Of a stretch of 27,061 nt of DNA, positions 186 through 24,737 are shown in pieces. This stretch comes from a virus. The position numbers were made by a program, and so were the translations under genes. Position 1 is the first letter of the stretch. Every line of letters begins with the position of its first letter. Below the pieces are notes generated by a model. The model did no database searches and was not told where the DNA came from. It saw nothing but the letters and a program-made list of their open reading frames with translations. The stretch covers positions 1 through 27,061 of the IMG/VR virus record IMGVR_UViG_3300010885_015141. One strand, 5' to 3'.

Positions 186-189
<4 letters not shown>
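1..189 (-). CDS. Partial small membrane protein, runs off left edge
   Basis: An open frame starts at an ATG whose last bases overlap the TGA of the methyltransferase gene (ATGA overlap at 186-189) and continues to the window edge without a stop, so only the first 63 codons are seen. Residues about 5-30 are hydrophobic (LAMLAVGQIIAAGMFSLGVLVG) and fit one membrane segment. A charged, lysine- and glutamate-rich tail follows. No family is recognised. The overlap places it in the same early transcription unit as the methyltransferase. It is shorter than common annotation cut-offs within this window, but its composition and exact coupling support it as real. Confidence 0.6.
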
Positions 190-1249
<1,060 letters not shown>

Positions 1250-1253
<4 letters not shown>

Positions 1254-8945: not shown

Positions 8946-9254
8946 TCACCTCCCGCCCGCAGGCAGAGCAGATGAAACAGGCGTGAGCGACGCGCCGGGC
9001 GGGGTTTTGCACTTGCAGGACGATGGGCACGGGCAAGCAGTCCGGTGCCCGTCGCCGTGGGTGATGTATCCCTTGCCGCCGCACTCGGTACAGCAGCTGG
9101 GCCTAGGAGGCTCTGGCAAGGGCTCTGGCGCCTTCTCAGTCGCCGTGGTGGCATACGCTGCCGAGACCGCCGCCGAGGCTCTAGGTGCCTCACGGTCGAT
9201 CTGGGCAGGGTCAGCGGACAGGGCCGCAAGCACCGAGAGGATGTACTGCCACAT
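8946..9254 (-). CDS. Membrane-anchored Cys-rich zinc-binding-like protein
   Basis: A 102-residue protein from the ATG at 9254 (MWQYILSVLAALSADP). It has a short hydrophobic N-terminus that may be a signal or anchor, then an Ala/Pro-rich linker (about 20-50). A compact Cys-rich module follows: SCCTECGGKGYITHGDGHRTACPCPSSCKCK, quoted here only by its parts CCTECGGKG, HGDGH and CPCPSSCKC. The spacing suggests one or two zinc or disulfide clusters. I recall similar CGGxGxxxHGDGH proteins from planctomycete phages. It lies with other membrane proteins of the lysis-like cluster. An in-frame GTG at 9263 is the alternative start. Confidence 0.72.
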   Translation of the reverse strand: MWQYILSVLAALSADPAQIDREAPRASAAVSAAYATTATEKAPEPLPEPPRPSCCTECGGKGYITHGDGHRTACPCPSSCKCKTPPGASLTPVSSALPAGGR

Positions 9255-9256
9255 GA

Positions 9257-9517
9257 TTACCACCCTTGCCCGTGGTTGAGGACTCGGTTCCCATCGGCGT
9301 CTACGCGAGCGTGGACGACGTACGCCTGCTCGGATGGCGGCTGCTCGGCGAACATCATTGCCCAGAGTCCGAGGCGGGCGAGCCGCTGGATAAGCCGCAG
9401 GACGGGACGCTGCGGTTCTGGCTTAACCGGGCTGTAGTCGCTGGTGGCGGCCCACCAAGTCAGAGCCACGGCGACCAGGCCGACGACCAGAGCGGATTGG
9501 ATTTCTCGTCGTGTCAT
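9257..9517 (-). CDS. Single-pass membrane protein of the lysis-like cluster
   Basis: An 86-residue protein. One hydrophobic segment (ALVVGLVAVALTWWAA, about 9-24) follows a short basic N-terminus. A proline-rich stretch (SPVKPEPQRPVLR) and a second weakly hydrophobic helix (LARLGLWAMMFAE) follow. The ATG overlaps the stop of the upstream gene (ATGA, 9514-9517) and GGAG lies 9 bases away. Its size, topology and place next to the peptidase and a small multi-pass protein would suit a holin or spanin-like role, but no family match is claimed. Confidence 0.72.
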   Translation of the reverse strand: MTRREIQSALVVGLVAVALTWWAATSDYSPVKPEPQRPVLRLIQRLARLGLWAMMFAEQPPSEQAYVVHARVDADGNRVLNHGQGW

Positions 9518-9741
9518 CGGTCAACGCTCCAGATCGAGTAGAAAAACATCACAACGCAGGCACCGATCACGCTGCCGATGAGCCCGGCGGGAGCGTCCCC
9601 GAACGGCAGACCACCAGCGAGAGAGCCGATGATGCCGAGTCCGATGGTGGGCACCCAGCCTTGAGGGCAGCGACCGGGCATCAACCACTTGGCGATGCCG
9701 CCGACGACGGCACCGAATGCAATCCACAGAAGCAGTCCCAT
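9514..9741 (-). CDS. GlsB/YeaQ/YmgE-family small membrane protein, holin candidate
   Basis: A 75-residue protein with three hydrophobic segments (about 1-18, 30-47 and 52-70). The pattern GAVVGGIAKWLMPG, GWVPTIGLGIIGSLAGGLPFG and GLIGSVIGACVVMFF is that of the transglycosylase-associated (GlsB/YeaQ/YmgE) family, normally a bacterial envelope stress protein. TAGGAG lies 6 bases before the ATG. In a phage, directly downstream of a membrane-anchored peptidase gene, a small three-segment protein could serve as a holin. That role is inference; a captured host gene is the alternative. Confidence 0.8.
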   Translation of the reverse strand: MGLLLWIAFGAVVGGIAKWLMPGRCPQGWVPTIGLGIIGSLAGGLPFGDAPAGLIGSVIGACVVMFFYSIWSVDR

Positions 9742-9750
9742 GCGTGTCTC

Positions 9751-10827
9751 CTAGTTTGGTGAAGGCGAGAGCCAATTTCCGTGGTGAATGTCTCGGTATT
9801 TGAAGCCCGCCGTGTCGCCTATGGCCCATGCGTCTTCAAGCATCCCTTCAATGACGCTGCGGCGTGCCCAGAACGATCCGTCAGGCTGGTCGCTCGGGAA
9901 CTTGCTTTCTTTCGGTCCGCACCAATTCGGTCCCCAGCTATTGAGCACGAGGCACAAGTCATCCGGTGCCCCGTTCTTTTTGTGGCGGATTCCTATGGCA
10001 CACATCTGATGTTGCCATGTCCCAGAAGCCTCGCAGATGCCCTCCTTACTGCGTGTCGAAGTGAAGCCCTGCGAGCTCGCCAGCGTCACGGGATATCCTG
10101 ACTCCAACGCTGCCGCAAGTTCAGCCCAAGAGCGAACGGCGACCACATGCCGCAGCGGATGCTTCTTTGCCTCGGCATCCAATCGGCCCGCGTCACCCTG
10201 ACCACCGCAGCCGTAGGCTCCCCACTGGCGGGCACGCTCGCCCGAATACTCAGTGAGATCCGCAGACGGATACTTCTGGCGATAGACGACTCCAAACTCA
10301 CGCAGGAACTTGGCAGCACCGAAGCCGGTCGCACCGTCTGAAAATCCGCCGTAGGGCTGGGCACCGTCGCCAGGCTTATTGCGGGCTTCTACCCTGGCTC
10401 CACCGTACAACGCTTCTGTTGCTGGCATCAGTGGCGGCTCAGGCAGTTTGCCAAGCGACCACGACACAGCCTCCGAGACGGCGACAGCGTGCATCGCGCC
10501 CCAGCTGACGCAATCACCGATGAGTTGCCTGCCGACGACGAACGGCTTGCCGTAGCGTGCTCGATGTGCGGCATCCAGTTGGCGATACAAAAAGACGTCA
10601 ATGCCTTTGGCCTGCTCCATTGCCTCGGCACCAGCCTGAAAGAAATACTTCTCGTCACCGAGGGTAGCAAGAAACTGTCGCGTCCCGACAGGATCGGGCA
10701 CGTATCCGAACTGCCCATCAATCCGTGCGGCGACTCTCTTGGTGGCACGCTCAACGAGCACGCCGAGGATCGCCATCACAATGACGAACGTGACAGCACC
10801 GACAGACCAACGGTTAGCGCGTGACAT
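9751..10827 (-). CDS. Membrane-anchored papain-like (C1) cysteine peptidase
   Basis: A 358-residue protein from the ATG at 10827 (GAGG about 10 bases upstream). Residues about 7-25 form one membrane segment (VGAVTFVIVMAILGVLV), placing the rest probably outside the cytoplasm. The papain-like triad is visible: Gln and Cys in RQLIGDCVSW (Cys106), His273 in GTWQHQMCAIG and Asn296 in LVLNSWGPNW. The product should cleave peptide bonds. It lies among small membrane proteins where a lysis enzyme is expected, and no muramidase or amidase gene is seen in the window. It may be a lysis or entry enzyme acting on envelope proteins, or a structural-protein protease. Confidence 0.85.
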   Translation of the reverse strand: MSRANRWSVGAVTFVIVMAILGVLVERATKRVAARIDGQFGYVPDPVGTRQFLATLGDEKYFFQAGAEAMEQAKGIDVFLYRQLDAAHRARYGKPFVVGRQLIGDCVSWGAMHAVAVSEAVSWSLGKLPEPPLMPATEALYGGARVEARNKPGDGAQPYGGFSDGATGFGAAKFLREFGVVYRQKYPSADLTEYSGERARQWGAYGCGGQGDAGRLDAEAKKHPLRHVVAVRSWAELAAALESGYPVTLASSQGFTSTRSKEGICEASGTWQHQMCAIGIRHKKNGAPDDLCLVLNSWGPNWCGPKESKFPSDQPDGSFWARRSVIEGMLEDAWAIGDTAGFKYRDIHHGNWLSPSPN

Positions 10828-11371
10828 CGGCAGCAGCCCTCGACAGGTCACGTAGTGCAGCCACCCAAGCCGCCCGGCTCTCGGGCGTCACTGGACCGCC
10901 AGACGAACCAACAGAATCGTCTAGAAACTTGTGTACGGCGTCTCGCACTTGCGGCTGGCGAGCACCTATGCTCTCGCCCTTGCAACGCATCTCTCGGGCG
11001 GCAATCCGCAGGTCGTCGAACGCAACGCCGGTCTTGAGTCGCTGGTCGTGCTTGCCGTCGTACTCGATGCACTCAGCGAGCTCGCCGCACAGAGCCGACA
11101 TCGTCGCAGCATCCTCGGCAGCGGTCGGGCCGATGAACTTGCCTCTCAGGCTGAACGCATCAGGCGGCACTGGAACGGGCTGCGGCGTCGGGCTACTCGA
11201 GCGGCCGGGCATGAACGCAATCGCAGCAGCCACGACCAGGGCGAGTGCGGCGACGTGCTTGCCGTCAATCGTCGGCATCTTTGCCGTAGCGATGAACGCC
11301 TTCGCCTTCTCGGTGATCTGTTGACCGGCAAGGACATAGACGGCGAAAGCCACAAGTAACGCTGTGATCAC
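10814..11371 (-). CDS. Membrane protein with two hydrophobic segments
   Basis: A 185-residue protein. The GTG at 11371 is chosen because it overlaps the upstream TGA (GTGA) and GAGG lies 8 bases away; the frame is open to 11464. The N-terminus VITALLVAFAVYVLAG is hydrophobic. A second segment, HVAALALVVAAAIAFMPG, lies near residues 38-56. A proline-rich linker and a helical soluble domain follow (FIGPTAAEDAATMSALCGELAECIEYD, AWVAALRDLSRAAADVTR). No family is recognised. It precedes the peptidase with a 14-base overlap, so the pair is co-translated and may form a membrane complex. Confidence 0.72.
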   Translation of the reverse strand: MITALLVAFAVYVLAGQQITEKAKAFIATAKMPTIDGKHVAALALVVAAAIAFMPGRSSSPTPQPVPVPPDAFSLRGKFIGPTAAEDAATMSALCGELAECIEYDGKHDQRLKTGVAFDDLRIAAREMRCKGESIGARQPQVRDAVHKFLDDSVGSSGGPVTPESRAAWVAALRDLSRAAADVTR

Positions 11372-11730
11372 GTTGACGACCTCACCATAGGGATCATGGA
11401 TTCCACGGCACCGCTCGCTAGAGCGAGCACAAACGCACGAAGTGCTGGGCGAAGAATTGCCCACGCTGGATATGCCATCAGCGGCACGCAGCTGCCCGCC
11501 GTCGTGTCGAAGAGTGCAGCGACGGCAGCAATGGCAATAGCCTTCTTCTCTGGACCGGAAAGCGTCTTGACTCGGTCAAGCGTCTCCACGGCGAGACGCA
11601 GCAGAGAGACCATCAACCGTCCGAACTCTTGCCACGTCAGACCGTCAGCCGCCGTGCGCCGGGCGTCCGACAGGAACGACATGACTTGTGCGTCGAGCCC
11701 GGCGACGGCGGATGGATGGTCTGCTGCCAT
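11368..11730 (-). CDS. Small membrane-associated phage protein
   Basis: A 120-residue protein. The first half is helical (LTWQEFGRLMVSLLRLAVETLDRVKTLSGPEKKA). The second half is hydrophobic (AIAIAAVAALFDTTAG, AWAILRPALRAFVLALASGAVESMIPMV) with probable membrane helices. From memory, similar proteins occur near lysis genes of planctomycete prophages, without an assigned role. It overlaps the next gene by 4 bases (GTGA). A holin-like role is possible given the context. Confidence 0.7.
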   Translation of the reverse strand: MAADHPSAVAGLDAQVMSFLSDARRTAADGLTWQEFGRLMVSLLRLAVETLDRVKTLSGPEKKAIAIAAVAALFDTTAGSCVPLMAYPAWAILRPALRAFVLALASGAVESMIPMVRSST

Positions 11731-14024: not shown

Positions 14025-16805
14025 TCAAACCCACGAAGCGGAATACGAAGTGATCCCATGCCTCGCCTTGTTGCCTCGATCAATTGACGGCAACCACTGG
14101 TACAACTCGCCTGTGTCGGAGGAAATCTTGAATTCGCTCAGGTTCAACTGAGGGTCGCCGATTGCGCGATAGATTTTGATGACTTTTGTTGGCGTTTTCT
14201 TGGTCGTAAAAAATGTGACAGTGCATGGAACCGAATATTTGCGGGTATGCGGAGTTTTCCTGAGCCCTTCGTAATTTCTCCATAACTCTCCTTCGACCAG
14301 CACTTCGGTAGGCTCACCAAACGAGACATCAGCTGCGTACACGTCAACCTCTGTCACGTCGCATACGTTGCCAAGCAAACCAATCCGCAGCATCGGATCG
14401 TCTGCGGTCGCGACTCCGTTTTCACTTGAACCATAAACGGATGTGCCGCTGCGGCCAAACCAATGCTGGAGATTCCATTCAGGGTAAGGCGCTGGGACTG
14501 TTTCGCCAGTTGCACGCAGAGGCGACGTGGCGTTGTAACTCGCTGAGTTGTGAACAAATTGAGCGCGAGCCTCAAGTGATCGCAGTTCCGAGTACATCGT
14601 CACCTGCACTGACTCACTGAAGTTCGCACACTTCGTCCACAAATCGACAACGTCCTGCTTAAACTTGGCCTTTGCCTCCGTCCAACGCTGCGTGAATGGC
14701 TTGCCTTTTATATCTGGCCCAGGAGGTATTCCTTTGAGATCAGCATCGCTTTGCTTGGTAGCCTCATGCTCATCGACAAAGTGATACCGCGTGAAGTCTT
14801 CGCCGATCCTAAAACCTAGAACGACTTCGTCAGTAACAAAACTTCTGATTGCGTTTCTGTTGTTAAACGGCTTGTATGGCCTGACAACACCATCTGAACC
14901 AAATTCTGTGCTGTCAATGTCTGAAAGTGACCACAATATGTTCCAGTCGTACACAAGCGGGTCGGCTACGTACAGCTTTTGATTCCACTCGGGCCACAAC
15001 ACGTCACTTGTGTAAAGCGAAAATGTGGTGGTGTAAGTTTGCGGGTCAGCCCCTGTAGTTGCTGCTGGCGTTCTTGCATTTGACGTGATAACTCCACTCC
15101 ACTGGGAAGGAGTTGGCGTTCCGTCTGACGTTTGTTGCTTTAGCTGTACGCTCAGATCACCGAAATGACCGAGCTTTTTACCACTAAACGAAGTGACTTC
15201 TGTGTCGCCTAAATACCAGTTGTATTTTGACCTGCCGTACTCATCAAACATTGAGTCAAAGTTGGCTGGCAATGATGGCAAGCCAGCAACTTGTCTGCCT
15301 AGAGGAACAGCGTCCGGCCATCGAGGAACAGTGCCTTGTTGGTTCCGCAACGTCTCCCTCAATGCAGCAACGGCAGCGACCGTTTTGTTTTCGGAAAGTG
15401 CTTTCTCAGCCGCGTCATGCGTCAGCGATACAGTCATTAACGCATTGATTCCGTTGTTGCACGCAGTAGAACCAATTGGCAAGGCTATGTCCGTCTTTGG
15501 CTGCGCTGCAGGCCAATACGAAACCTCTGCGGCTTTCCATTGCGCCGCAAAAGTCATCGCTGTAAAAAAGCAATATTGCTCATGCGCCGCAAGCGATGCT
15601 GATCTAGATGCTTGCGTGCTGGTTGCTACCCTAGCGCGTATGTCGTGAACTTCTCTGCCTTCAAACGGTATGGCAGTCAAACTAGGAAGCAGAATATCTA
15701 CAGGCGGGCCAGATCGAGAGTCTGAGTCAAGCAAAAGGGTTTTTGATGATTGCGTGACTTCAATTTCAAATCTCAGAGGATGCCTGTCAAGGCAATCTAC
15801 CGGCTGACGATACCGATCATCCGCGTACTCATTTGTATTGATGGCTATGGGACTGAAAAACACTCGTGGTATGAACCCGTTCCACATATCTCTGTATGGT
15901 CCGTAGTAGTCTCCATAGCCTTGATACAAACCAACGTCATTCACTGGCTTTGATCCAACGCACGCAAAAGCGGAGTCGCGATCCATGCCAAGCGTCAAAT
16001 ATCGATTAGCGCAATCAACTTGGCATTGCGTCTCTTGCACATTAAGCGATCCGCCAGTAATTCTGCCAAACTCAAAAGTGTGTAGGGCTTGATGGTAGAT
16101 TCTTCCTCGAGTTAGCCCTGTTTTGAGGGGCGAAGGATTGCTCCCCAAGTATTGCATTGATGCGCGATGGTTATAGAGACTTGAATCGTCTGAGTACGAC
16201 ATGATCGCAGACGGCTTGCCTCGCACGAAGAATGAATGCGAATCAACGCCTTGAGAAAACAACCCCAGCTGGCTAGTCCTGTCTTCGCTGAAATAGCTTG
16301 GGATGCTGTCAGATATTGCTTTTACGAGGAATGGAACAACTAAAGTTTTCATTCGCAAGAAAATGCCGTCTAACCTCTGCGTTGGGTTATCCTTGTTGTA
16401 GAAAAACGCCTTTACCGTCACGACGCCGTCGGCTGCCTCATCAACCGCGCGCGTTTGTGGGGCTTGCACTTCGGTTGCTCTTCGCGCAATTACCAGCGTC
16501 GTCAGGCAGTTTGCGTTGCACGGGCAGTAAGCATCTGGATCACGAGGCTGAGCGTCGCTTGTGAACGTGTAGCCGCCATACCCTTTCCGGAAAACAACGC
16601 TTGCAGATGTTGGCCCGCCATCCCAACCAACGCTCCACAGGTCACTCTTGTATCTGCTGCTATCAGGAGGTTGAAAGGACGGATGCGACAGCCACCAAGG
16701 CTGAATGTCGGCGCTAATCGGCGATTCCCAAGAGGCACGTTCCGTGTCCTGCGTTCCAATTGGCCGCAAGATCGGCAGTCGATAGAACGATTGCTGGCAC
16801 GTCAT
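14025..16805 (-). CDS. Large tail-associated protein of unknown function
   Basis: A 926-residue protein from the ATG at 16805, which overlaps the stop of the upstream gene (ATGA, 16802-16805); the frame is open to 16907. No domain is recognised. It is rich in Ser, Thr, Asp and aromatic residues, has a Cys cluster (YCPCNANC, about 93-100) and scattered Cys later, and shows no membrane segment or signal. Its place after the tape measure and two tail proteins suggests a tail tip, baseplate or fibre role. The DNA is visibly more AT-rich than its neighbours (for example 22 G/C of 60 at 14161-14220), suggesting separate origin. Confidence 0.8.
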   Translation of the reverse strand: MTCQQSFYRLPILRPIGTQDTERASWESPISADIQPWWLSHPSFQPPDSSRYKSDLWSVGWDGGPTSASVVFRKGYGGYTFTSDAQPRDPDAYCPCNANCLTTLVIARRATEVQAPQTRAVDEAADGVVTVKAFFYNKDNPTQRLDGIFLRMKTLVVPFLVKAISDSIPSYFSEDRTSQLGLFSQGVDSHSFFVRGKPSAIMSYSDDSSLYNHRASMQYLGSNPSPLKTGLTRGRIYHQALHTFEFGRITGGSLNVQETQCQVDCANRYLTLGMDRDSAFACVGSKPVNDVGLYQGYGDYYGPYRDMWNGFIPRVFFSPIAINTNEYADDRYRQPVDCLDRHPLRFEIEVTQSSKTLLLDSDSRSGPPVDILLPSLTAIPFEGREVHDIRARVATSTQASRSASLAAHEQYCFFTAMTFAAQWKAAEVSYWPAAQPKTDIALPIGSTACNNGINALMTVSLTHDAAEKALSENKTVAAVAALRETLRNQQGTVPRWPDAVPLGRQVAGLPSLPANFDSMFDEYGRSKYNWYLGDTEVTSFSGKKLGHFGDLSVQLKQQTSDGTPTPSQWSGVITSNARTPAATTGADPQTYTTTFSLYTSDVLWPEWNQKLYVADPLVYDWNILWSLSDIDSTEFGSDGVVRPYKPFNNRNAIRSFVTDEVVLGFRIGEDFTRYHFVDEHEATKQSDADLKGIPPGPDIKGKPFTQRWTEAKAKFKQDVVDLWTKCANFSESVQVTMYSELRSLEARAQFVHNSASYNATSPLRATGETVPAPYPEWNLQHWFGRSGTSVYGSSENGVATADDPMLRIGLLGNVCDVTEVDVYAADVSFGEPTEVLVEGELWRNYEGLRKTPHTRKYSVPCTVTFFTTKKTPTKVIKIYRAIGDPQLNLSEFKISSDTGELYQWLPSIDRGNKARHGITSYSASWV

Positions 16806-17449
16806 ACGATCACAATAGCCCAGACGATAGGCGCGTTCGTTGAGTCCGTGAACGTCGTTGCATTGCCTGCATACGACACAACCTTGACACTTGACTCGCA
16901 CGCGCATGGATGCGAATCAAGGATGCCAAAATGTTGCTGTACGCCAGCCTCAGAGATTCGTCGGATAGGGCGGACTGCAAACTTATGCGAGCCGTCAAAC
17001 TTCCTCACCCTGACAACAGCCAGACCTGAAATCACAACAGGCACGCACACAAGAGACAACGCATCGGCGGAGCTTCCATCGATGGTTATTCCAAGCGTGT
17101 CGTTAGCGCTTGAGTCATAGCTGCCGATGTATGTCAGCCCACCACGCAAATACTCAACTGCAAGAATACCTGAGTAGGAGGTTCCTGTGGTCTGACCCTT
17201 AATTTCGCTTTGCGAGCCATTGATTGACACGGCCATCCCAGGCGGCATTCCGTTTGTGAAGTTGTATGGAATCTGCACCTGGACAGTCGCAACAAGCCTG
17301 TTTGAGAATGGCTGCGCGGCACCAGCCGTCACGCCCGCATGTGCCCCAAGCACAAGGTCAGCTGCGTCCTGCGCCCGATTCCACGCCCTTGCCGAGATAG
17401 CACCGCGCAGCGGCTGGCCCTGTTCGATGCGTCCGTCTGGGCGTGGCAT
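16802..17449 (-). CDS. Minor tail-region protein
   Basis: A 215-residue protein. The N-terminus PDGRIEQGQPLRGAISARAWNRAQDAADLVLGA is a pattern I associate with a tail-region protein in planctomycete phages. The middle is beta-rich (VATVQVQIPYNF, VAVSINGSQ, LTYIGSYDSSAND). It follows the 301-residue tail protein with a one-base TGATG overlap and is coupled to the large protein downstream. Together these form the distal end of the tail operon. The specific function is unknown; an adhesion or baseplate element is likely. Confidence 0.72.
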   Translation of the reverse strand: MPRPDGRIEQGQPLRGAISARAWNRAQDAADLVLGAHAGVTAGAAQPFSNRLVATVQVQIPYNFTNGMPPGMAVSINGSQSEIKGQTTGTSYSGILAVEYLRGGLTYIGSYDSSANDTLGITIDGSSADALSLVCVPVVISGLAVVRVRKFDGSHKFAVRPIRRISEAGVQQHFGILDSHPCACESSVKVVSYAGNATTFTDSTNAPIVWAIVIV

Positions 17450-23641: not shown

Positions 23642-24103
23642 CTAAACAGTCGGCAGCACGTTGCTCTCAAACACCCGATACGTCGCCGTAATCACTGCCC
23701 GCCAGACGTTCCGCTCTGTCAGTGCGTCGTCGGGATTCAAGTCGATGGCGACCGTCTGCGGACTCGTCACGCCAGCCGGCCACGTCACTGTCTGCCCGAA
23801 CGAATGAGCACGCACCTGGAGCATGACGCTGTCGGCGAGGTCAAGCATTCCGTCAACTTCAGCGTCCGTCGTGACGTGCCGACCAACGAATATCGTCACG
23901 GTGTAATCGACTTGCATAATCTGACGGCTAAGACGCGACACGTCTGCGTTGCCTGGAACAACAAACACTCGAGGAACGCTCATAGCGTCTACGTCGATGT
24001 TCGCCCAGTTCTTACGCTCAACAACGGTGGACGTGATGTCCCACGTCACGGACTGCAAACCAATTGCTAGGCTGTCGGCGATGCCTCGCAGGACGCTGCT
24101 CAT
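23642..24103 (-). CDS. Tail completion (tail terminator-like) protein
   Basis: A 153-residue protein. The segment VDYTVTIFVGRHVTTDAEVDGMLDLADSVMLQVRAHSF and the closing RNVWRAVITATYRVF are typical of the small tail completion proteins that cap the tail tube before it is joined to the head. Length is normal for the group. Its ATG overlaps the stop of the 52-residue membrane gene (ATGA, 24100-24103). Gene order with the gp10-like gene and the tube proteins supports the call. Confidence 0.75.
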   Translation of the reverse strand: MSSVLRGIADSLAIGLQSVTWDITSTVVERKNWANIDVDAMSVPRVFVVPGNADVSRLSRQIMQVDYTVTIFVGRHVTTDAEVDGMLDLADSVMLQVRAHSFGQTVTWPAGVTSPQTVAIDLNPDDALTERNVWRAVITATYRVFESNVLPTV

Positions 24104-24258
24104 CTCACCACCCCCTCAATTGCCGTCCCGATTTCCACAGCCAGACTCTGCGCTTCGCTGCTTTCCGCCCACCTCACAAGTCGCGTGAGAACAAACGGGC
24201 CTACCAGCGCAAGAGCTGCGTAGGCCAGGGCGACGGTGATGGTTTCGTTGTCAGTCAC
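24100..24258 (-). CDS. Small single-pass membrane peptide, 52 residues
   Basis: A short gene with a GTG start that overlaps the stop of the sulfotransferase-like gene (GTGA, 24255-24258) and a TGA that overlaps the next ATG (24100-24103). The product is V/MTDNETITVALAYAALALVGPFVLTRLVRW... with a hydrophobic segment (about 7-26), followed by a charged, helical tail (AESSEAQSLAVEIG). Tight coupling on both sides supports it. The function is unknown. Confidence 0.72.
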   Translation of the reverse strand: MTDNETITVALAYAALALVGPFVLTRLVRWAESSEAQSLAVEIGTAIEGVVR

Positions 24259-24737
24259 TGCAACGACTCCCACAGTGCGATATCTTCAGCGTAAATGCCC
24301 CGCACGCGGGCCTCCTGCTCTGCCGTTAGCATTGGCTTGTCGGCCTCGTTGGTCGCGTCCTCTTGCGGCAGCGGAGTCGGCAGTCCCAGCCACTCGGCGG
24401 CTTCGTTTAGCTGATCTTCAAAGCGGAAGTAGCGTGCAAACGTCCCTTTCGGAAGCCTGCCATAAGCAGGGGCGTCTAGATGCTCCTCAAGCGTCCGCCA
24501 CGGCCGATGTGCGACCATTGATCTAAAACGCTCGACTGGGTTTCGGACAATAAGTCCAAAGCCCGACTCGCCGTTCCACGACTCAGGCGGAAGCGAGCCC
24601 GCCGGATGCTGCCCGTCTGGTACGACAGTGTTTGGATACCACGCCGTGATCGCAGCCGATGCCAGCGAGTGACTGCCGCTACGCGGCGTCAGCAATACCG
24701 CATTACCAGTAACAGGAGATCGCAAGACTTCGCCCAT
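24255..24737 (-). CDS. Sulfotransferase-like protein
   Basis: A 160-residue protein from the ATG at 24737 (AGG 6 bases upstream; the frame is open to 24860 inside the neighbouring gene). The N-terminal AVLLTPRSGSHSLASAAI (about 13-30) matches the PAPS-binding P-loop-like 5' element of sulfotransferases. IVRNPVERFRSMVAHRP (63-79) matches the 3'-phosphate element with Arg-Asn-Pro and Arg-Phe-x-Ser. A shortened acceptor region and a closing FRFEDQLNEAAEWLGLP segment follow. It is much shorter than cellular enzymes, which are usually above 250 residues. It lies among receptor-binding genes, so it might modify a fibre or a surface sugar. Confidence 0.75.
   Translation of the reverse strand: MGEVLRSPVTGNAVLLTPRSGSHSLASAAITAWYPNTVVPDGQHPAGSLPPESWNGESGFGLIVRNPVERFRSMVAHRPWRTLEEHLDAPAYGRLPKGTFARYFRFEDQLNEAAEWLGLPTPLPQEDATNEADKPMLTAEQEARVRGIYAEDIALWESLQ

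Follow-up and report, generated by a model that had tools for sequence, protein, structure and literature searches.

A conserved gene block around a papain-fold cysteine peptidase as a possible particle-release module of Planctomycetota phages

What does a papain-like cysteine peptidase do in a phage when it lies in the position of a lysis enzyme? This question is raised by the viral record IMGVR_UViG_3300010885_015141, a linear fragment whose 27,061 bases were all analysed and are called the window here. The preliminary description of this DNA reported a membrane-anchored C1-type peptidase among small membrane proteins, and it guessed at a planctomycete host with a protein-rich envelope. In this study, we propose that the block 11730-8946 around the peptidase gene is a particle-release (lysis) module, which is built on a redox-partnered cysteine peptidase and belongs to a temperate-type phage of Planctomycetota. 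Both the function and the substrate are what we infer, and we give this proposal about an even chance of being right.

The peptidase and its predicted fold

The window peptidase has a single hydrophobic helix at its N-terminus (residues 7-25), and such a helix was present in 86 of 99 relatives, with a mean small-residue fraction of 0.39. There were 114 relatives of the peptidase in viral contigs, and residue conservation was estimated from 99 relatives. The Cys-His-Asn triad and the oxyanion Gln of the C1 family were all found in the window peptidase in the right order, and these residues were nearly invariant (Table 1); six distant prophage members have Gln or Gly in the column of Asn296. In addition, the dN/dS ratio of the peptidase against its relatives was about 0.09-0.14, which indicates purifying selection.

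No usable relative of the peptidase was found by sequence in Pfam, PHROGs, PDB, or INPHARED. For the sequence alone, the match to Pfam Peptidase_C1 was below the gathering threshold (14.1 vs 20.7 bits, E = 0.049), and thus we describe the peptidase as a divergent, C1-like family. The structure predicted with AlphaFold2 from an alignment of 26 had a pLDDT of 88.9 and a pTM of 0.85. Using Foldseek and VIA-align, the model was assigned to the papain fold; the best match was xylellain (3ois; Z = 22.1, rmsd 3.3, 238 residues), and many cathepsins also matched (Z = 17-20). The peptidase is therefore confidently predicted to be clearly papain-like in fold, and the earlier reading as an anchored C1-type enzyme with an intact catalytic set agrees with this model.

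Xylellain is a C1A-type, papain-like proteinase of the bacterium Xylella fastidiosa. However, it shares 21% identity with the window enzyme, is not encoded by a phage, and has neither a membrane anchor nor small membrane proteins as partners. The model also matched Cwp84 (4ci7; Z = 17.4), the C1A surface-layer protease of Clostridioides difficile. Cwp84 acts on a surface-layer protein, which is a plausible type of target here as well, but it is a cellular enzyme with other domains and lies outside any phage module.

The conserved block and its thiol partner

The position of the peptidase had been taken as that of a lysis enzyme, and its gene indeed lies, at a lysis-module position on the late strand, in a block that is conserved and rich in small membrane proteins. 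The block spans at least 8946-11730, and it is wider than the preliminary description had given. All of its genes are on the minus strand and are closely packed with overlapping starts and stops; for example, the 86-aa gene starts before the 75-aa gene has ended. The counts of neighbours in Table 1 refer to viral loci with enough flanking sequence and include near-identical contigs, so that they are not independent.

Table 1. Positions and conservation of the block genes, the catalytic codons, and related features outside the window
Feature	Coordinates	Strand	Description	Occurrence
120-aa holin candidate	11368..11730	(-)	GPEKK motif, weak hydrophobic segments	62/69 viral loci
185-aa protein	10814..11371	(-)	two N-terminal hydrophobic segments and a conserved C-terminal domain	69/69 viral loci with room
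C1 (papain-fold) cysteine peptidase	9751..10827	(-)	358 aa, ATG at 10827; 366 aa with upstream GTG at 10851	
Oxyanion Gln101 codon	10525..10527	(-)	codon checked	Gln in 98/99 relatives
Catalytic Cys106 codon	10510..10512	(-)	codon checked	Cys in 99/99 relatives
Catalytic His273 codon	10009..10011	(-)	codon checked	His in 96/96 sequences reaching the column
Catalytic Asn296 codon	9940..9942	(-)	NSWG motif; codon checked	Asn in 88/94
75-aa GlsB/Transgly_assoc-like membrane protein	9514..9741	(-)	hydrophobic segments	39/52 viral loci
86-aa protein	9257..9517	(-)	one N-terminal hydrophobic helix	47/52 viral loci
Cys-rich exported partner	8946..9263	(-)	102 aa from ATG at 9254; CCxxCxGxG...HGDGH...CPCP..CKC	52/52 viral loci with room
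Blastopirellula marina DSM 3645 element	G012:C2 about 3954000-3980000 (L125-L127)			
Second exported papain/C39-like peptidase family, planctomycete phages	L178:11738-12313 and L197-L249			

The 185-aa, 75-aa, and 86-aa proteins all contain hydrophobic segments, and flanking membrane proteins had indeed been noted before; none of the small membrane proteins of the block matched a holin family in Pfam or PHROGs. Homologues of the 185-aa protein were found in B. marina, G358, G140, G352, G408, and G318, and those of the 120-aa protein in B. marina, G358, G140, G352, and L099. The 120-aa protein had no Pfam match, and we thus treat it as a candidate holin. The C-terminus of the 86-aa protein (NHGQGW) is conserved, and its counterpart in B. 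marina ends in NHAQGW.

The 75-aa protein belongs to the GlsB/YeaQ/YmgE family (PF04226, Transgly_assoc) by way of its homologue in G002, which matched at 2.6e-8; the window copy alone gave no match to PF04226. It is the least conserved neighbour, is not a constant part of the module, and was seen in none of the cassettes of the large prophages examined. Because of this patchy presence, the GlsB-like protein was rejected as the key holin, and it is unlikely to be the essential one. Elsewhere in the window, among the tail genes (24100-24273, minus strand), a protein of 57 aa with one helix is an alternative holin candidate. A separate gene at 186-1253 (minus strand) is similar to DNA cytosine methyltransferases and carries a dinucleotide repeat, read in frame as alternating Thr-His, which is a possible phase-variable site.

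The most constant component downstream of the peptidase is the Cys-rich gene, which went unmentioned in the preliminary description. By profile, its product falls into one family with the N-terminal part of several exported thioredoxin-fold proteins, which are encoded next to the peptidase in prophages. A short gene separates the peptidase from a downstream gene for an exported thioredoxin-like protein with a WCPYC or WCPHC motif in B. marina, G358, G140, and G352 (Thioredoxin_7 matches of 5.5e-7 and 1.6e-7). In D4, G013b, G124, G171, G213, G318, and G408, the gene immediately downstream bears a CxxC thioredoxin-like segment. Pfam supported this assignment in G171 (1.9e-10) and G318 (2e-6) and gave no thioredoxin support for the gene in G408; in D4, G013b, G124, and G213 the assignment was made by motif and context only. 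No clear thioredoxin was found beside the peptidase in G340 and L104.

A similar pairing was seen in a second family. The prophage G400 has the head module common to the window phage but is without the window-type peptidase. It encodes an exported enzyme of 192 aa with a predicted papain/C39-like fold (pLDDT 83.6), and the model matched a papain-like protease (Z = 13.2) and the pseudomurein endoisopeptidase PeiR (Z = 11.4). No sequence relation between the two peptidase families was detectable. There were 53 relatives of the G400-type enzyme in viral contigs, and in each of the 47 loci with enough flanking sequence the next gene downstream was thioredoxin-like. This second pairing supports the reading of the block as a lysis module. 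PeiR and PeiW are papain-like peptidases that open a cell wall. However, their target is archaeal pseudomurein, and the match to PeiR was obtained with the G400-type enzyme and not with that of the window. To our knowledge, pseudomurein endoisopeptidases have no thioredoxin partner.

Planctomycetota prophages and a domesticated element

Searched with the peptidase, the genome collection gave relatives from Planctomycetota MAGs, B. marina DSM 3645, two Mucilaginibacter strains, one record named 'bacterium', and an alphaproteobacterial MAG fragment. Among 392 sampled Planctomycetota genomes, 15 were matched by a narrow profile and 22 by a broad profile, 14 of the latter strongly. The terminase (46-49%), the portal (47-53%), and the capsid protein of the window have clear relatives in the Planctomycetota prophages G400, G306, G310, and G371. 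From these homologous blocks and head genes, the host of the window phage is very likely a member of Planctomycetota, as had been guessed. The cassette of the window matches prophages that are structurally different from these four, which are the nearest by terminase and portal. This difference in kinship suggests module exchange. A role in lysis is favoured by this exchange and by the recurrence of the block in Planctomycetota prophages, where an exported thioredoxin-fold gene often follows it.

The position of the cassette differs between prophages. In the window, the peptidase adjoins tail genes, and in D4 and G340 it lies between capsid and tail genes, which would suit a part of the virion or tail with a role in the maturation of phage proteins or in entry. 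However, the signal anchor or signal peptide at the N-terminus points to the envelope, as does the exported partner, and the relatives encode a separate fusion of prohead protease and capsid protein (S78 and Phage_capsid_4). We therefore regard a virion role as quite improbable. Because of this separate fusion, capsid maturation was set aside as the role of the peptidase, and processing of capsid proteins alone, named earlier as a refuting alternative, became less likely. The tail region of the window also contains a gene for a large Cys-containing protein (14025-16907, minus strand) without a PHROG match, and its counterparts in related phages differ in sequence.

The cassettes at L099:212-3219 and L134:7027-10182 (G352) are intact, and hardly any phage or none is left around them; host use or recent decay is possible for both. 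In addition, the Mucilaginibacter homologues (L102:10118-11041 and L103:10010-10921) are stand-alone chromosomal genes with no anchor and no phage context. These observations, together with the variable position of the cassette, speak against a lysis module, and the cassettes in L099 and G352 could point to a benefit for the host. An anchored peptidase might act on the lysogen itself, stripping or altering one of its surface receptors or envelope proteins and so causing superinfection exclusion or lysogenic conversion, and the membrane anchor, the exported partner, the variable position, and the persistence of cassettes where the phage has mostly gone are consistent with this. However, the block adjoins late genes on the same strand and showed no promoter of its own (a weak test; promoter and terminator scans of the block gave no informative signal), it is a multi-protein module with holin candidates, and one vertically inherited element has kept the cassette along with its head and tail genes. 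Thus, we think such a role improbable.

This element is phage-like and 26 kb long, contains packaging, head, and tail genes as well as the cassette, and is collinear at the same chromosomal site in B. marina, G358, and G140; no integrase was recognised in it. Between B. marina and G140, the median identity was 73.8% for element genes and 74.9% for flanking host genes, with dS of 1.14 and 1.08. Furthermore, the element genes, cassette included, are under purifying selection in the three Blastopirellula-type genomes. Divergence like that of the flanking host genes, together with purifying selection, is consistent with vertical inheritance and with a role like that of a gene transfer agent, and we propose the element as a candidate for such an agent or for a domesticated particle. 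This pattern suggests that the cassette is used to produce or release particles, and it is a further support for the lysis module.

Particle release and the host wall

None of the scanned window proteins was recognisable as a muramidase, amidase, transglycosylase, or other peptidoglycan hydrolase, in line with the preliminary description. In the related genomes, Pfam searches recognised no murein hydrolase in G003 (among the best 25 of 40 families), in G001 and G002 (best 25 of 30), in the B. marina element (best 25 of 38), in D4 (18/18 families), in G408 (20/20), or in the regions of G124, G340, and G013b (14/14). No terminal repeats were found in the 41-44 kb contigs, and thus the completeness of these genomes is putative. 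The lack of a recognised hydrolase in the near-complete relatives (families listed), D4, and G408 is in favour of the lysis module, and so is the separate prohead protease. However, five control prophages without the block, G400 among them, likewise showed none (21/21 families), and none turned up in any of the prophages when these were scanned with crude motifs. Since the controls show the same, this absence is weak and unspecific evidence; it may be general to these prophages, or the enzymes may be too divergent for recognition. The argument from a missing murein hydrolase to lysis by protease was thus rejected as proof.

The idea of a protein-rich wall in place of murein is outdated, as planctomycetes possess lysozyme-sensitive peptidoglycan (PMC4432640). 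For this reason, the main and serious rival is a papain-fold murein endopeptidase, that is, an ordinary but divergent endolysin that cuts peptidoglycan peptides as CHAP, NlpC/P60, and pseudomurein endoisopeptidases do, with a thiol partner that only keeps the cysteine reduced. Papain-fold lysins are common, such as the CHAP domain of LysK (PMC4126393), the second peptidase family resembles PeiR, and the fold relatives of the window peptidase in BFVD include proteins named as peptidoglycan-binding or muramidase. However, the peptidase has the predicted fold and the NSWG and Gln motifs of true C1 proteinases such as xylellain and the cathepsins, not those of CHAP or NlpC, and no murein-binding domain was seen in it. 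We judge this rival to be unlikely on balance. The peptidoglycan of the host, a hydrolase that may simply be unrecognised, and a holin candidate without a Pfam match nevertheless all count against the lysis module.

For the lysis module speak the predicted papain fold with its near-invariant catalytic set, the N-terminal helix, and the strongly conserved genes around it. In such a module, the peptidase would be exported, and its N-terminal signal anchor would keep it in the inner membrane, with the enzyme toward the periplasm. Late in infection, it would be released or activated, probably with the help of the small membrane proteins, and it might then cleave protein or peptide bonds of the host envelope. 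The exported partner, which is Cys-rich here and has a thioredoxin fold in many relatives, may keep the catalytic cysteine reduced or open disulfides in the target. The predicted anchor would be comparable in function to that of SAR endolysins (P1 Lyz and R of phage 21), which are exported lysins on an N-terminal signal anchor, and P1 Lyz is controlled through cysteine chemistry. However, SAR endolysins are muramidases, and the catalytic domain of the window enzyme has a papain fold.

More generally, planctomycete phages might exit by a redox-coupled protease system, in which an exported papain-fold peptidase and a thioredoxin or Cys-rich partner act against a disulfide-stabilised, protein-rich envelope layer. 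Such a system would have arisen with at least two sequence-unrelated peptidase families and been kept in the vertically inherited, gene-transfer-agent-like element of Blastopirellula. We offer this broader idea tentatively and hold it doubtful.

Nothing on phage lysis of planctomycetes was found in the open-access literature searched (subscription papers were mostly outside that search), and the subject is essentially unexplored. A conserved module of a peptidase and a thiol partner would point to a way of meeting the planctomycete envelope that differs from the one used by phages on model Gram-negatives. The reading of the block as a lysis module can be tested in cultured strains, above all in B. 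marina DSM 3645, and the module would give tools to open the cells of this phylum.
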